NCBI RefSeq assembly: GCF_004116385.1
Contig: NZ_PEIB01000009.1
Location: forward strand, 62,001-126,000
Length of the DNA: 64,000 nucleotides
Source: Veronia nyctiphanis
Lineage (GTDB): Bacteria; Pseudomonadota; Gammaproteobacteria; Enterobacterales; Vibrionaceae
Reading direction: 5' to 3'
The notes beneath the pieces were generated by a model, which saw only the letters and a list, made by a program, of their open reading frames with translations, made no database searches and was not told the DNA's origin. How positions within the stretch are numbered: the stretch's first letter is position 1; each line of letters begins with the position of its first letter. The position numbers and the translations under genes are program-made. This document shows, in pieces, positions 27,441 to 33,857 of the stretch.

Positions 27441-27463
27441 TTTGTGCTTTATAAACGAATGTT

Positions 27464-27487
27464 AGGCAGCCAGTGGCTGCCTTTTTT
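27464..27487 (+). terminator. hslVU terminator
   Basis: AGGCAGCC-agt-GGCTGCCT followed by T6. Confidence 0.9.
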
Positions 27488-27683
27488 ATTTCCATTTCAC
27501 GTTCACCAGTTCTACCGCATTGCTAGTACTCACACAAAAACAGCACATCTCAGATAGACCTGTCAGATCAACCAGTGTCTCGCTCGACGCGCAGCAGCAA
27601 TAATGAAGCGCAAGTTGGACTGATATCAAGGGCATGCTCTCAATAATATAAACGTTGCCAACCCTGCCCTTCTTCCAACACAT
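27486..27683 (-). CDS. Cys-rich short ORF, possible peptide precursor (uncertain)
   Basis: 65 codons on the minus strand, divergent from the HExxH gene 80 bases away. AGGG lies five bases before the ATG, an acceptable ribosome site; an inner ATG would give a 49-residue product (MPLISVQLALHYCCC...). The C-terminal half contains CCC, then CCFC, then an acidic/hydrophobic tail ending VNVKWK. I do not recognise it. Because it sits beside a peptide-modifying enzyme it could be the substrate, but a random ORF overlapping the hslU terminator is equally possible. Nothing else is visible in 27488-27762. Confidence 0.25.
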   Translation of the reverse strand: MCWKKGRVGNVYIIESMPLISVQLALHYCCCASSETLVDLTGLSEMCCFCVSTSNAVELVNVKWK

Positions 27684-27762
27684 TCCTGCCCTGACACATC
27701 TGGGTAACGCAAATTCTCTATAAATGTTAACGCTTAAAAGCTAAAAATAATTAGGAAAACGC

Positions 27763-28779
27763 ATGGATACATCATGGATAAAGATGTTTAGCTGGAAGCC
27801 ACAACGCGCTATTCAAGAAAACGTTGATCAATATTTCCATTTTTTGATGGCCACCGAGTCATCTCGGTTTTGGCAAACTCTTTCAACTGTCGATCCATTA
27901 AAAAGCGGAGAACTCGCCTCAACACTGAAAGGAACCCCTTCTCTCCGCTGGACTCCCTTTTGGCATTCACCAGCAGTCTATCAACTCATTATTCAATGGG
28001 TTCGTCATCGACAGTTTGATCAAGAAGCGGCTGTTTTAATGCTGTGCGAAGGATTACTGACATTAATTGATAGACGCAAAGAAGAGAAAGGTCGCCTCGA
28101 TTACTCCAGTGGTCTTGTAGTCGATATGAATAGCCACTTTGCACTTACGGACTACATAGTTGGCGACAAAGCTTCCGCATATAAAGGGCAGGAAAAGAAA
28201 ACGGTTCTGAACAAGCTCAAGAAAGCATCCCAAACCATTCTCGATATTAACCCTGTAATCTGGGAGTTCATTACGGCTAATTGCAGCCTTCTAGTCTTGC
28301 GTGAAACCCATGACCAAACAGCAAAATCATTTTCGCATGCTGAATGCTTGGGAGCCGTTACTTTTGAAAACTATCATTTAACTGAAGTAACCTCATCCCA
28401 AATGCAAGCAGATTTGCTGCATGAAGCCATTCATAATTTCCTAAATAAAGTTGAACTCAAGGGAGTATTGCTGAATGACCATAATGTACTTAAAGACGAA
28501 CTTTTCTCTCCTTGGACAGGCGAATTAACCAGCTTACATAGCCTTATTCATCATTGCTTCGTATGGGGGGGCGTACATCGTTATCTATCAGAGGTAACAA
28601 GGAGTGTTCATTCGACGGAAATCACCCATAAGCTGCTGGAATTTATTGAGAAAGGCTTTCTAGACAAAAAGTTGTTACTGGCAGTAAACAGCTATCGAGA
28701 CAGTCTCCCACCTTACATATTTAACCACATTGTGGGGCTTACCCACTCTTTTCAGAATAAACAGTTGGTTTGTCACTAA
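27763..28779 (+). CDS. HExxH protein of the alpha-ketoglutarate peptide beta-hydroxylase type
   Basis: 338 residues, cytoplasmic, no signal peptide or membrane segment. It resembles the family annotated as 'HEXXH motif domain / aKG-HExxH-type peptide beta-hydroxylase', found in peptide-modification (RiPP) clusters: DLLHEAIHNFLNKVE holds the metal motif HEAIH at residues 220-224, followed 25 residues later by SPWTGELTSLHSLIHHCFVWG (SPW at 249-251), the two conserved blocks of that family. N-terminal third is unassigned. Family members hydroxylate side chains of a precursor peptide using iron and 2-oxoglutarate; substrate here unknown. Convergent with the M3-like gene. Family call by motif reading only, not by search. 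Confidence 0.65.
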   Translation: MDTSWIKMFSWKPQRAIQENVDQYFHFLMATESSRFWQTLSTVDPLKSGELASTLKGTPSLRWTPFWHSPAVYQLIIQWVRHRQFDQEAAVLMLCEGLLTLIDRRKEEKGRLDYSSGLVVDMNSHFALTDYIVGDKASAYKGQEKKTVLNKLKKASQTILDINPVIWEFITANCSLLVLRETHDQTAKSFSHAECLGAVTFENYHLTEVTSSQMQADLLHEAIHNFLNKVELKGVLLNDHNVLKDELFSPWTGELTSLHSLIHHCFVWGGVHRYLSEVTRSVHSTEITHKLLEFIEKGFLDKKLLLAVNSYRDSLPPYIFNHIVGLTHSFQNKQLVCH

Positions 28780-28783
28780 GTAC

Positions 28784-28815
28784 AAAAGGACGATACATAA
28801 CCGTATCGTCCTTTT
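28784..28815. terminator. Bidirectional terminator in the island
   Basis: AAAAGGACGATAC-ataacc-GTATCGTCCTTTT, a 13-base perfect stem between the convergent HExxH and M3-like genes. Confidence 0.92.
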
Positions 28816-28835
28816 AGTCACTTGGATGAAAATGA

Positions 28836-29881
28836 TTAAACGTAATAAGGCGTTGTCTTCAAGTATTTGACGGAATTAGTGACAACAATCAACTCCTCAG
28901 TCGAAAGGTTCTTTCCTCTTTGCATCAAAGACATCACATCGTTTTTGCTCAATGTCTGTTGCAAAACTTGAAGCGCTAACTTCTCGCCCAGTTGTCTTGC
29001 CAGTGGGTAAAATAAAGCTGGTTTCGCTTTTTGTTCCTTTTTCAACCTCAGTGCCTCTTCCCATTGATGGTAAGAGCGAAGAGAATAACTACGCTGCAGC
29101 ATATCCTGAGTCTGTTCATCAGCAATTGCACACAGATAAGCCAAACCGAGGGCTTCCCAGAAAAAGCCAAACGTTTCTTTGACAATATTTATCGGCATAA
29201 AGCGATAAAACGGCTGGCTGTCCATCGACAAGTTGTAATGCATCACATGACCAAATTGGTGTGCAATAGTCAGCAAATCACAGACGCGGTTAGTCTGACG
29301 CCACAGCACATTGGGTTGCAATTGATATCCAGTAAGGCAAGTCAGTGAGTGCCTGTGCTATTTTGTAAAAAGACCGAACAGCGAAGGTGATGACGCACAT
29401 GAGGCCAACTATGCTGCGCCAACAACGCTGAATAACTCGATAGCGGATGCGCGCCGAATGTCCGGAGCAACGTGTTGTAGTCAGTTGGCTTAATCAGGTG
29501 TGATGTTGATTTTGGTGCAAATCGCTTCAGCGATGACAGAAAAAGCTTAGTGTCGGGTGGATAATTCAGAGTGCTATGTGCTCTCTCAAGCTCTTTCTTA
29601 TCCGCAAGGCCTCTTGATGCTTTAAGCCTTTGTACAGCCTGCTGATAACTTGATGGCACATTGTTAAGCTTCTCTGAGAACGTCGCAAGCTGCCTGAACT
29701 TTTCATCATGCTTGTGACCGAGATGTTGTAGTTCCCAATTGAATTCACTACAGCATTGAAACAGCAACTCATCTGCTTTTTGGTAGACAGTGAGATACTT
29801 ATCAACATTTACATCATCAAGCTCAGCAAGTTCTTTAATCGCTCTGGCTAACAATACCTCTTTAGACGGCCTCATGCTCAC
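28836..29881 (-). CDS. M3-peptidase-like protein with HQFGH in place of HExGH (one frameshift)
   Basis: After adding one G at 29345 (plus strand) two ORFs join as STGTHLTCLTGYQLQPNV into one 348-residue protein. Residues 208-250 align without gaps to the active site of M3 oligopeptidases (PepF): HQFGHVMHY, then SQPFY, then VKETFGFFWEALGLAYL. The zinc ligands (H208, H212, and the Glu near 236) are kept but the catalytic Glu is Gln (CAA, not GAA). The protein is also much shorter than PepF (about 600). It may be a binding protein or pseudo-protease. The E-to-Q change is a substitution, unlike the base-loss errors elsewhere. Function unknown. Confidence 0.65.
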
Positions 29882-29910
29882 CTCTGAATTTCACGTTTTG
29901 TTTACATTCA

Positions 29911-30060
29911 ATGAGAGTAAGCGAAATGAAAATTCAGGGTATTACCCGAGTGGGTAGTTTTATTGTCAGAGATCTCAATTATCGGCTAATGAGTTATATA
30001 GACGAGAAAAATACTGAAATTATGATGTTAAAGATTATGTCAACAAGTGCTTTCTCATAA
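29911..30060 (+). pseudogene. Short ORF resembling the start of a CadC-type wHTH, possible relic
   Basis: 49 codons (44 if the ATG at 29926, which has GAGAG 8 bases upstream, is used). ITRVGSFIVRDLNYRL resembles the opening strands of OmpR/CadC winged-helix domains (G-x-F-x-V...), as in the neighbouring regulator (ELGDFVVCEKDRTL), but the recognition helix is missing and the frame ends. May be a truncated regulator or chance. The rest of 29882-30222 is AT-rich and shows nothing I can support. Confidence 0.25.
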
Positions 30061-30222
30061 GAAAGTTTGTTGTTTCTCTCAATTTTTCAATGTGTTCACA
30101 CCACGCAGTGAATTATTTGCTTATCTTGTAGAATAAACGTAAGTACCTGTCAGGTCATACAGGTTTCTTTTTATGATAAATTTACTGTATATTCTATTAA
30201 CTAACTATTCGAGGATACTAAT

Positions 30223-30402
30223 ATGAAGAAAAATATACTAACCTTTTTTATCTCAACATTTTTAATGCTTAGCTCTAGCGCTTGTATCGCAGAAGAAACT
30301 ACTAACAGTAATTTACTTGTAATAGAATCACCTTCTGATCAAGATATTACCCCAGAAAGAACATGTTTAATGTTCAATCAAGTAGTTATACATTGCTTTT
30401 AG
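30223..30402 (+). CDS. Small exported peptide, 59 residues
   Basis: ATG 30223 is preceded by GAGGA at good spacing. Residues 1-23 (MKKNILTFFISTFLMLSSSACIA) are a textbook signal peptide: basic start, hydrophobic core, small residues before the cut. Predicted mature part is 36 residues, begins EETTNSNLLVIES, and ends in RTCLMFNQVVIHCF with two Cys nine residues apart, so a disulfide loop near the C-terminus is possible. A lipobox reading of the early Cys (SSAC) is also conceivable. I do not recognise it. It is convergent with the CadC-like regulator and 340 bases downstream of the divergent M3-like gene. Base composition is very AT-rich like its neighbours. Confidence 0.6.
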   Translation: MKKNILTFFISTFLMLSSSACIAEETTNSNLLVIESPSDQDITPERTCLMFNQVVIHCF

Positions 30403-30435
30403 TTGAATTTCATTAAAAGTCGGAGCTTTATAATA

Positions 30436-32368
30436 TTAAACTTTGACTTTTAATATTTCTTTTCCATCTTCTGAAAGATGATAAATAAAAGCATCATTAT
30501 CAGTATCAAAGTATTTTATTTCAGTTGAAGATTCATGAATAAGTTTAACTTCGTTATTAGTTAACTCAATAAAGTTAAATTTATTCCCGTCAATCATATT
30601 TAAGAATAATCTATTATCTTTTTCATAAATACCAATAACCATTCCGTACTTCCAATTTAACTTAGCAGCGGGCTTAGCCAACCTCAGCATATTGTTATTT
30701 TCTAAAGGGTGCCTTTTGAAATTTATATCTCTAAGATCAAGAGATTTAAATTCATTTGGTGACTTAGAATTAGGCATATCAAACTTTGATAGTTTTATTT
30801 TATTCCCTAAAAACGAAATAACCTTCAAGTCGCTAAGCTTGTTATCATACGTAGTGATTAGTTTACTTCCGATGCTTACTTCATCAATAATGTTATTTTT
30901 TGCCAGATCAAAGAACCCAATGCTATCTTTATACTGAAATATCATCAGTTTGTTATTTTCATCAATTTTAGAGATAAAGATACTATCATCCTTCCGTAAG
31001 ATTTCTTTGTCACTCTTAATATGAAGTATTCTATCCTCATGGCTAGAATTGAATCTATTGTTAAAATCAAATATATTACCTGATGCATATAGATTGGAAA
31101 AGCTATCACCCACAACACTAGAAAAATTCGCAAGCATAGAAAAACCAAGATTACTCTCACCGGGAGGAATAGAAAATACTTTCATTTGCTTTTGAGATGT
31201 ATGTTGAGTCAGATAAAATGCCTCATTATCATTTAAATAAAAGTCATCTGAATAGTCAATTTTCATCTTGTTAAAATAGATAAAACTTAAATCACCTAAA
31301 TTTACTGATAATACCTCCCCATCAACGAGAATATAAAATGAATTATCAATATATTTTACTTGCTTTGCTCTTCCTTTAAATACTCTCTCAGATGTCTCTT
31401 TATCTTTTCCTTTTTTTACTCGTGCAATATATGAATAATTTAGCCCCGGGATTATGTATATAAGTTCATCTTTTATCGAATCATAAGCTGATTTCAATGA
31501 TGGGTATGCGATATCTAGCTTAAATATTTCTTCTTGGCGCTCAGTCTCTACTATGTAACGTTTTACTATTGAATAATTATTATATATCATTGATACAATG
31601 ATACTTTTCTCATCATTTGAAGAGCTTAAATGCGTGATTTTTTCACAATTATAGAGTTTTACATCATTAACAATCTTTGTTATTAAGTTATACTTTAATA
31701 GCGAGCAGGGTTTACTTTCATCTTTACTTGCAAATATATAATTACCTGCACTAACTAAGTTAGAGATAGGATGAGAAACTTCGACTAAGTCAGAAAAAGT
31801 TAAATTATTCATTTCAGAAATATAATAATTCTCATTATCACTCCTGATAGTTAGCTGATTATTCCACCCCAAGTTAACTATACCTTCACTAAGGCCATCT
31901 ACGCCCGTAACACCAAATGTAACCAATTGTAACTTTGGGTAAACATATGCTAGAAGGAACAAGAAAGTTACAGTTGATATAAGAAAGCCTTTGGATTTAA
32001 AAAGATTAAAGCGGCTGTTTTTCCTATGTTTTTTTTAACTCTATATTTATATATTTAATACTACAAACTAACCTATAACCTTTTCTCGGAACAGATTTTA
32101 TATACTGAGGGCTTTCAGAATCGTCGCCTAATACCTTCCTTAACTTTGCAATACTCTGTCTAACTGCTGAATCTGATACAACCCGACCACTCCAGACATT
32201 CTCATGTAACTCCTCAAGAGTGACGAATTTGTCTTTGTTGGCTATCAGGTAAAGAAGGACGGCAAGCGATTTATCTTCAATCGATACCTCATCACCGCTT
32301 TTGTCATTTAGCGTTCTGTCTTTTTCGCAGACTACAAAATCGCCTAACTCAATCATCAAAGTGCTCAC
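30436..32368 (-). CDS. CadC/ToxR-like membrane regulator (frame interrupted at an A8 run)
   Basis: Two ORFs form one protein of about 643 residues. Residues 1-105 are an OmpR-type winged helix (AVLLYLIANKDKFVTLEELH, VSDSAVRQSIAKLRKVLGDD, YIKSVPRKGYRLVC). Then a basic linker, one membrane segment (GFLISTVTFLFLLAYVY, about residues 127-143) and a 500-residue periplasmic part of repeated beta-strand blocks, probably a beta-propeller. The frame breaks between DNA-binding and membrane parts at a run of eight A (plus-strand T8, 32029-32036); seven or ten A restore it. As written, the DNA-binding half alone is made (114 residues). Strongly AT-rich, so likely acquired. Signal and targets unknown. Confidence 0.7.
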
Positions 32369-32699
32369 TAACAGTTACAGTATGCAAAAGTAAATGCCTA
32401 AGTTATCACTCATTGATGTCGCTAAAAGCGTCTACTCAACTGTTTGCGATGTGATTCAACGTTTTTTTGACAATTTTGACGCATTATTACTAAAACTATC
32501 ATTAATCTAACCGATATCACTAACCAGCGTAAGTAATTGATTTTTATTGCTATATAGTTATCACTTTTCTATCACCCCTTGTGTGATGCCCGTGTTACTG
32601 ACGTAACACTTACAAAATCAACGGTTAATTGTCGAAGTAACAGGCGATTTGAGAGATACAAGAGTCAATCAACTTTATTGAGTCTTAGGTAGGTACGAA
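32369..32699. other. Divergent control region between two regulators
   Basis: AT-rich, no gene seen. It carries the promoters of the CadC-like and LuxR-like genes, and the inverted repeat listed separately. Confidence 0.5.
32592..32609. promoter_or_regulatory. Palindromic operator candidate
   Basis: GTGTTAC-tgac-GTAACAC, a perfect 7-base inverted repeat 90 bases before the LuxR-like start codon. A second weaker repeat, ATCAC-cccttgt-GTGAT, lies just upstream (about 32571-32587). The binding protein is unknown; the neighbouring regulators are candidates. Confidence 0.4.
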
Positions 32700-33275
32700 A
32701 TGGACTTTCGATTGACAACACAGCAAGTAATAAACTCAGCGACTAAAGAGAAAATGGCTGTATTGGGGTTTGAGTGTTTTTCTATCTCAGTCGTCAGCGC
32801 TCTCTCGTTGAATCGTTATCATCGTTTTGCTCTGGAACACGGTATAGATAGTCAAATTTTGGACGTAAAAGAAATGGTCCAACATTGCCAAAAGAACATC
32901 ACTCCGAAGAGGATTCAAACCCAATTAGGCGAGAAGCTGACGATAATTCCTTTTCACTTTCCTGGTTTTTGGTTTGCGTCAATGACAGTTAAAACGACAG
33001 AGTTTGTCGTATCGGGGAGTTCTGATATCAGCGCTCTACAAACAATCATCTATTCGTTGTTCGAATCGATTAAAGCTGATCATCAACACATAAGACTAAG
33101 CAAGAGAGAACAAGAATGCGTTGAATGGCTATCTGAAGGAAAAACAACACCTGAAATCGCAGTTATTCTTAATATTTCTGAGAGAACAGCCTCTTTTCAT
33201 GTGAATAACATTATTCATAAAACGCAGAGCCTTAATCGACATCAAGCGCTGACTAAAGTGATTATGTCATCGTAA
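32700..33275 (+). CDS. LuxR-family regulator with a short, unusual sensor domain
   Basis: 191 residues. The C-terminal GerE helix-turn-helix (LSKREQECVEWLSEGKTTPE, EIAVILNISERTASFHVNN) is of the acyl-homoserine-lactone LuxR type, including the conserved E-G-K-T and F-H-V-N-N. The N-terminal 125 residues keep a start like that of signal-binding LuxR proteins (LGFECFSISVV) but lack the conserved W-Y-D-P core and are about 50 residues short, so it probably does not bind an acyl-homoserine lactone in the usual way. No luxI is present in the window. A near-perfect lux box lies 357 bases downstream, before the neighbouring HTH gene, and is its likely target. Confidence 0.75.
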   Translation: MDFRLTTQQVINSATKEKMAVLGFECFSISVVSALSLNRYHRFALEHGIDSQILDVKEMVQHCQKNITPKRIQTQLGEKLTIIPFHFPGFWFASMTVKTTEFVVSGSSDISALQTIIYSLFESIKADHQHIRLSKREQECVEWLSEGKTTPEIAVILNISERTASFHVNNIIHKTQSLNRHQALTKVIMSS

Positions 33276-33331
33276 CAGGTAGATATCTGTTTTCTTTCGC
33301 ATACACCAAGCGGCTCTTTTTTACACCTTTA

Positions 33332-33571
33332 TTAGTTAATCATATTTCTAATGCTGAAATGATTTATGATGATATCGACTCTGCTCTTAACGTTAAGGCG
33401 TTCAAATAATAATTTGCAGTGATACTTTACCGTATTCTCTGATATGAAGAGTGCTCTTGAGATTTCTTTATTGGTTTTGCCTTCAATAATAAGATGAACG
33501 ATTTGTTCTTGCCTTTCGGTCAGAGTAATCGGCATCGCTTGAGAGCGTGGAGTCATATTATTCATCATCAT
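33332..33571 (-). CDS. Stand-alone GerE/LuxR helix-turn-helix protein
   Basis: 79 residues, almost entirely one GerE domain: TERQEQIVHLIIEGKTNKEI, ALFISENTVKYHCKLLFERL. No receiver or ligand domain. Convergent with the LuxR-like gene. A lux box is centred about 70 bases upstream of its start, with a TATAGA -10 candidate at 33607-33602 (minus strand), so it is likely activated by a LuxR-type protein. Several Met codons at the N-terminus leave the exact start open (33571 or up to five codons later). Confidence 0.75.
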   Translation of the reverse strand: MMMNNMTPRSQAMPITLTERQEQIVHLIIEGKTNKEISRALFISENTVKYHCKLLFERLNVKSRVDIIINHFSIRNMIN

Positions 33572-33631
33572 GCGAGATGTACCTTTTCGGCTTGTTATGT
33601 TTCTATACTGACTTATCTCGCCTTATCGCTG

Positions 33632-33651
33632 TACTGTACGATCGTACAGTT
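33632..33651. promoter_or_regulatory. lux box
   Basis: TACTGTACGATCGTACAGTT: its central 18 bases (33633-33650) are a perfect palindrome, and it matches the Vibrio fischeri luxI lux box (ACCTGTAGGATCGTACAGGT) at 16 of 20 positions. Centre lies about 45 bases before the predicted start of the minus-strand HTH gene, the position where LuxR activates. It also lies 207 bases upstream of rraA. Confidence 0.8.
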
Positions 33652-33857
33652 TGCCCCCCGTCACCAGCCAACAGAGATGCCTCTTCACACCTCAACAACG
33701 TCATTGATATGTATGTTTATTGATACTCTTGTTTGCTTTGTAAGCACAATCATTGCAAAGCCCTTTTCAACCGTTATACTTTCTGGAAAATAACGGCAAA
33801 TTTGGGTTTATTAACCTCATATCTCTGCCTCACCTGAAGATAAGAAGACATAAACCT

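Follow-up and report, generated by a model that had tools for sequence, protein, structure and literature searches.

The gene and its islet

The window analysed here, that is, the whole stretch of 64,000 nucleotides taken from Veronia nyctiphanis (contig NZ_PEIB01000009.1), carries a gene that reads as a single ATG open reading frame of 338 amino acids and is open throughout (Table 1). The gene lies in an islet of ∼6.3 kb between hslU and rraA, with a GC content of 0.37 compared with 0.49 and 0.47 in the flanks. The upstream genes were read by eye and are taken by us to be priA, cytR, ftsN, hslV and hslU; those downstream, also read by eye, are presumably rraA, zapB and glpX. Counterparts of hslU, rraA, zapB and glpX were found in relatives. 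In one same-genus genome, rraA starts ∼0.25 kb past hslU and the islet is absent. Of six further relatives, five showed an hslU–rraA gap of ∼1.1–1.2 kb, and no rraA match was obtained in the sixth (G003). When the islet genes were compared by tblastn with the hslU–rraA stretches of the seven relatives, no match was found for any gene.

The HExxH gene is convergent with an M3-peptidase-like gene that is split over two frames, and a terminator-like inverted repeat was seen between the two. The C-terminal piece has HQFGH at the position where M3 peptidases carry HExGH. Neither half had a match among plasmids, and the C half had none among 147 relatives besides its own genome. Being broken and convergent, this neighbour was rejected as an operon partner. 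Elsewhere in the islet, a CadC-like regulator is also read in two frames (DNA-binding part at 32024–32368, long C-terminal part at 30436–31962), and its frame break adjoins an A run, so that the break may be genuine or may stem from a sequencing error. Near rraA, the islet also has two genes whose products carry LuxR-type DNA-binding domains (32700–33275 and 33332–33571). The islet also contains a 59-aa ORF at 30223–30402 with a Sec-signal-like start as judged by eye.

Table 1. Coordinates of the features in the window and, where a locus number precedes them, in homologous loci
Feature	Position	Strand	Basis or remark
HExxH oxygenase-like gene, 338 aa	27763..28779	+	open frame; TIGR04267 19.6 bits; ChlH-like fold
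HEAIH codons, residues 220–224	28420..28434	+	H220, E221 and H224 constant across alignments A1, A2 and A4
SPWTG codons, residues 249–253	28507..28521	+	arginine-less loop form; ChlH has SPWREDLRP
Codon of His 263, a probable third ligand of the metal	28549..28551	+	invariant in A1
Terminator-like inverted repeat between two convergent genes	28784..28815	.	seen by eye; not listed by a scan
C-terminal piece of broken M3-peptidase-like gene, other frame	28836..29321	-	HQFGH; two NCBIfam matches well short of their cut-offs (M3_fam_3 E 7e-5, pepF E 3e-4)
N-terminal piece of broken M3-peptidase-like gene	29342..29881	-	no family match of weight for the piece alone
Islet between hslU and rraA, GC 0.37, ends approximate	27441..33800	.	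absent from one same-genus genome; GC contrast
Short peptide ORFs	L049:5582-5659, L050:5318-5395, L051:5133-5210, L052:6765-6851, L087:3809-3883, L094:4491-4562		ahead of HExxH and MFS genes
ENRSMMGGWTI-repeat ORFs, 71 and 74 aa	L053:8034-8249, L088:5310-5534		next to HExxH and MFS genes

Reading of the 338-aa frame bore out an earlier, sequence-only reading of this DNA, which had placed HEAIH at residues 220–224 and SPW at residues 249–251. In the five-row alignment A1, residues H220, E221, H224, E231, S249–G253, H263, V267 and W268 did not vary. By analogy with ChlH-type enzymes, the two His of HEAIH are probably metal ligands. The spacing between H263 and SPW is fixed, and Glu replaces H263 in one Sphingomonas protein, as would fit a third metal ligand. 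A single-sequence search of the protein's own genome revealed no second copy at E 1.

Sequence relatives and family assignment

An NCBIfam scan of the window protein gave one match, to TIGR04267 (mod_HExxH, aKG-HExxH-type peptide beta-hydroxylase), with E 7e-4 over residues 205–283, and the score of 19.6 bits was below the curated cut-off of 40 bits. The Pfam scan returned nothing at E up to 10. The whole genome, a draft of 127 contigs with 95% completeness, showed no match at E 0.001 when searched with the TIGR04267 model.

By tblastn against 72,556 plasmid records, three matches were found, all in Rhizobium (E 2e-10, 8e-8 and 2e-6), two of which were annotated as ‘HEXXH motif-containing putative peptide modification protein’. 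A pattern scan of genome contigs with the three-row alignment A2 confirmed three relatives among 397 pattern stretches. The Leptolyngbya relative shares 42% identity with the window protein over residues 183–271, the Sphingomonas relative 43% over residues 189–268, and the Filimonas relative 28% over residues 176–323. TIGR04267 was matched by all 10 homologues scanned, and its cut-off was exceeded by eight, the other two being G045 (32.5 bits) and the Filimonas protein (36.2 bits). Short-pattern scans, which can miss relatives, yielded no close relatives of the window protein alone in genome contigs, viral contigs or phages, and none of profile A2 in viral contigs. Among 329 genomes of the family, profile A1 gave matches in 7, own genome included, and among the other six the SPWTG loop was present only in G045. 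The window protein alone matched 4 of 369 genomes of the class, again counting its own; the match in G326 was set aside because it covered only residues 12–64. In a FastTree tree of the core, the window protein stood beside a Leptolyngbya protein with weak support (0.71).

The profiles led by sequence to a solved structure, that of ChlH, which Morishita et al. 2024 are said to have described as the HExxH domain of ChlB-HExxH (PDB 8s5f). ChlH was reached by profile A1 with E 3e-12 and by profile A4 with E 1.6e-7, much of the signal being carried by rows other than the window protein, and both alignments placed HExxH on HExxH and SPW on SPW. Searched alone against solved structures by sequence, the window protein did not find ChlH. 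Together with the predicted fold described below, these matches make the window protein a homologue, though a divergent one, of the aKG-HExxH peptide hydroxylases. It was not filed under TIGR04267, because the cut-off was not reached, and is described instead as a homologue that shares fold and motif.

Predicted fold

AlphaFold2 was run without templates on alignment A4, whose four rows begin with the window protein. The mean pLDDT was 62 and the pTM 0.64; pLDDT was <50 at residues 1–118 and 123–139, and most of the rest lay at 70–90. The top rows of the Foldseek search were four ChlH chains (8s5f; E 7e-8 to 6e-7, TM about 0.52–0.57), followed by SjiH (22ob) with E 9e-6, and the row after that had E 0.22. 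VIA-align was applied as a second look at Foldseek's rows. Against ChlH it gave a Z of 18.7 over 265 residues with an rmsd of 4.2 and 13% identity across the aligned fold, and against SjiH a Z of 14.5 over 271 residues with an rmsd of 5.1. The third row, an M32 carboxypeptidase, had a Z of 7.2 over 81 residues, so that the predicted model belongs with the ChlH fold (Z 18.7, and 7.2 for the first row after SjiH). The motif residues also agree with those of ChlH-like enzymes: HExxH, S249–W251 and a third His (H263) at the same fixed distance. SjiH was compared by fold alone, and a literature search for SjiH returned unrelated papers only.

The sequence-only reading had assigned the protein to the aKG-HExxH-type peptide beta-hydroxylases and proposed the TIGR04267 model and a structure prediction as checks. 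The predicted ChlH-like fold, the motif and the homology uphold that assignment, whereas the family model, although it matched, scored under its curated cut-off.

Neighbourhoods of the relatives

The neighbours of 22 homologous loci were read (L003–L006, L018–L020, L049–L053 and L086–L095), a sample that leans to Vibrionaceae; loci for which only short flanks were taken, L007, L008 and L054–L074 among them, do not enter the counts. A radical SAM gene was identified by annotation or Pfam in six loci (L004, L005, L006, L019, L020 and L086), and an MFS transporter in ten (L049–L053, L087, L088 and L091 by Pfam; L093 and L094 by annotation). Neither was present in the remaining six (L003, L018, L089, L090, L092 and L095), whose other ORFs were judged by eye or annotation. 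The premise of the earlier reading, that members mostly stand beside radical SAM or similar genes, thus did not hold in this Vibrionaceae-leaning sample (6 of 22 loci with radical SAM). Several homologues sit in RiPP-like loci. In the three Rhizobium plasmid loci, a radical SAM gene is followed directly by the HExxH gene, and L092 contains YcaO and ThiF genes. In L091 the HExxH protein is reduced to a fragment, and in L052 it is in two frames. TIGR04267 was found above cut-off in 10 of 177 genomes of the genus of G590, presumably Vibrio.

In six MFS loci, a 23–28-residue ORF was observed ahead of the operon, with 25 aa each in G590, G748 and G071, 28 aa in G645, 24 aa in G730 and 23 aa in a Pantoea agglomerans plasmid (Table 1). 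No radical SAM gene was seen in these six loci, and a CMD-family gene is also present in L052 and L087. When the upstream sequence was shuffled 500 times for each locus, such a short ORF arose 28 to 61 times, and for this reason one short ORF alone means little. Between G590 and G748, 13 nucleotide differences in the peptide ORF lie in codons whose residue is unchanged and 5 in codons whose residue differs; counting the stop, 23 of 26 codons have the same meaning, and the preceding 40 bases differ at 23. Comparisons with G071 were less clean (11 and 22; 9 and 19). Loci with a short peptide, an HExxH gene and an MFS gene are possibly minimal RiPP loci. In G685 and G741, an ORF of 71–74 aa with two ENRSMMGGWTI repeats lies ahead of the HExxH and MFS genes, and these ORFs look like precursors with two cores. 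No paper on HExxH enzymes with precursor peptides in Vibrio was found in the literature from 2022 on.

Several other arrangements were observed. In two genomes of one genus, a 73-aa ORF, an HExxH gene and a JmjC_2 gene stand in a row (L089:5440-7353 and L090:5238-7151; Pfam was run on L089 only). After the G045 homologue there is an ORF (L003:9613-10596) that appeared ParB-like by eye, has a Cys/His-rich tail and gave no Pfam match. In Filimonas, an ORF with repeated FDRCFNK (L020:5161-5496), probably a precursor peptide, lies ahead of the radical SAM gene.

Partners of the window gene

The islet ORFs gave no RiPP-like gene in Pfam or NCBIfam, and the surroundings of the window gene yielded neither a radical SAM gene nor a transporter nor any convincing candidate for a precursor peptide. 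Neither a short peptide ORF nor an ENRSMMGGWTI-repeat ORF with an MFS gene, as in the relatives' loci, accompanies it. The 350 bases upstream contained no ATG ORF of 18–40 aa with a ribosome-site-like stretch. TIGR04085 (SPASM radical SAM) had no match in the own draft genome at E 0.01, and 10 of 14 control genomes matched. The gene is thus outside a recognised RiPP cluster, as the sequence-only reading had held: within the islet no precursor peptide, partner enzyme or exporter adjoins it.

That reading had also put forward two candidate peptides, and both were set aside as substrates. The one at 27486–27683 is on the other strand and runs away from the gene, and its codon score was equalled by 228 of 1744 islet stretches; the one at 30223–30402 lies beyond the broken gene, with 261 of 1750 stretches scoring as high. 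This codon score takes the core genes of the window as reference, which handicaps foreign genes and makes it weak for them.

Interpretation

On balance, we consider it fairly probable that the window gene encodes an iron-dependent peptide oxygenase of the ChlH-type fold which was acquired with the islet and is now without cluster partners. The product would be a soluble enzyme in which Fe(II) is held by the two His of HEAIH, probably together with H263. O2, probably with 2-oxoglutarate, would oxidise a peptide side chain by beta-hydroxylation, or the backbone. The gene would have arrived between hslU and rraA by horizontal transfer. Its original partners (a precursor peptide, an exporter and any second modifying enzyme) do not adjoin it, and so the enzyme would act on a peptide encoded elsewhere or may now be idle. 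The peptide substrate is argued from the relatives only, because no peptide, partner or exporter was found nearby.

According to the available text of PMC13060819, characterised relatives hydroxylate His, Asp, Phe, Gln and Pro, and that of PMC12636437 states that PflC and PosC also cut the peptide backbone oxidatively. PflC/PosC, PesO and BipH/BpmH, the RiPP aKG-HExxH hydroxylases that the papers place in the same enzyme family and that we likened by description only, occur in RiPP clusters with a precursor peptide, unlike the window gene. ChlH resembles the window protein in fold, in HExxH and SPW, and in a third His at equal distance, but it forms one protein with a radical SAM enzyme, as far as the available text of PMC12636437 goes, and has loop arginines, neither of which applies to the window gene. 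Closer in the loop are the proteins of Rhizobium (L004–L006), Sphingomonas (L019), Filimonas (L020) and Leptolyngbya (L018), with an arginine-less SPW[TS]G or SPWSD form; a radical SAM gene is present at five of the six, whereas the window locus has none. The Leptolyngbya locus also differs in having a second HExxH gene and a gene of the metallo-beta-lactamase fold. Several observations count against a peptide oxygenase: the TIGR04267 score under cut-off, the missing loop arginines, the low model confidence at residues 1–139, and hydrolysis by PflC.

The loop arginines bear on the co-substrate. The loop reads SPWTGELTS in the window protein and SPWREDLRP in ChlH, T252 and T256 replacing the two Arg. 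The protein thus lacks the arginine pair of ChlH. Among 26 distinct sequences that fit the motif pattern, both Arg were present in 16, neither in 10 (window protein included) and a single one in none; HExxH proteins whose loops differ fall outside the pattern (L016/L053, the first HExxH proteins of L018 and L019, L056/L057 with one Arg, L063, L066–L068, and those of L086 and L088–L092), and ChlH itself is outside the 26. The arginine pattern holds for these 26 sequences. One reading, which we regard as rather unlikely, is that the window protein has the ChlH fold but belongs to an arginine-less branch in which 2-oxoglutarate is not anchored as in ChlH, being bound at another place or replaced by a different co-substrate. 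This would be consistent with the all-or-none distribution among the 26, and with the available text of PMC12614342, by which positively charged residues bind 2-oxoglutarate in HExxH enzymes of this type, and PolE, whose metal motif is related, works with a pterin. However, four relatives without the arginine pair exceed the TIGR04267 cut-off (L004, L005, L018b and L019b), and a lone Arg does occur in at least one protein that the pattern does not cover (L056, in G859). It is a similarly doubtful proposal that the ChlH-fold HExxH oxygenases form two branches, keeping or lacking the arginine pair as a unit, and that the window branch handles the co-substrate differently or uses another, and so carries out a different reaction, on a peptide encoded elsewhere.

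HExxH is also the zinc peptidase motif, and the protein might be a metallopeptidase whose zincin-like site hydrolyses peptides without oxidation. Zincin-like proteases did occur among the fold rows, with low Z (3e11 5.2, 1g12 4.4), and PflC cuts leaderless or truncated substrates hydrolytically in the available text of PMC12636437. Nevertheless, ChlH and SjiH were far better fold matches than any peptidase, the zincin peptidase fold was rejected, and no Pfam peptidase match was obtained, which makes hydrolysis alone quite improbable. It is hardly likely, too, that the gene is a decaying, functionless remnant like the rest of the islet, as the M3-like neighbour with its HQFGH and the CadC-like gene, both in two frames, the lack of partner genes and the same-genus genome without a homologue might suggest, since the HExxH gene is open throughout, has kept its motif residues and scores like coding sequence by codons (a rough measure, and weak for foreign genes, reached by only 2 of 1510 same-length islet stretches), whereas the neighbours' frame breaks may be errors of sequencing, the genome being a draft of 127 contigs.

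The favoured reading, an iron-dependent peptide oxygenase left without its cluster partners, touches on a young enzyme class, whose characterised members all come from RiPP clusters in the available text of the papers cited. An orphan of the arginine-less branch would be a clear test of the need of that branch for 2-oxoglutarate. The loci of relatives in which a peptide ORF, an HExxH gene and an MFS gene occur without radical SAM would be small systems with a candidate substrate beside the enzyme.
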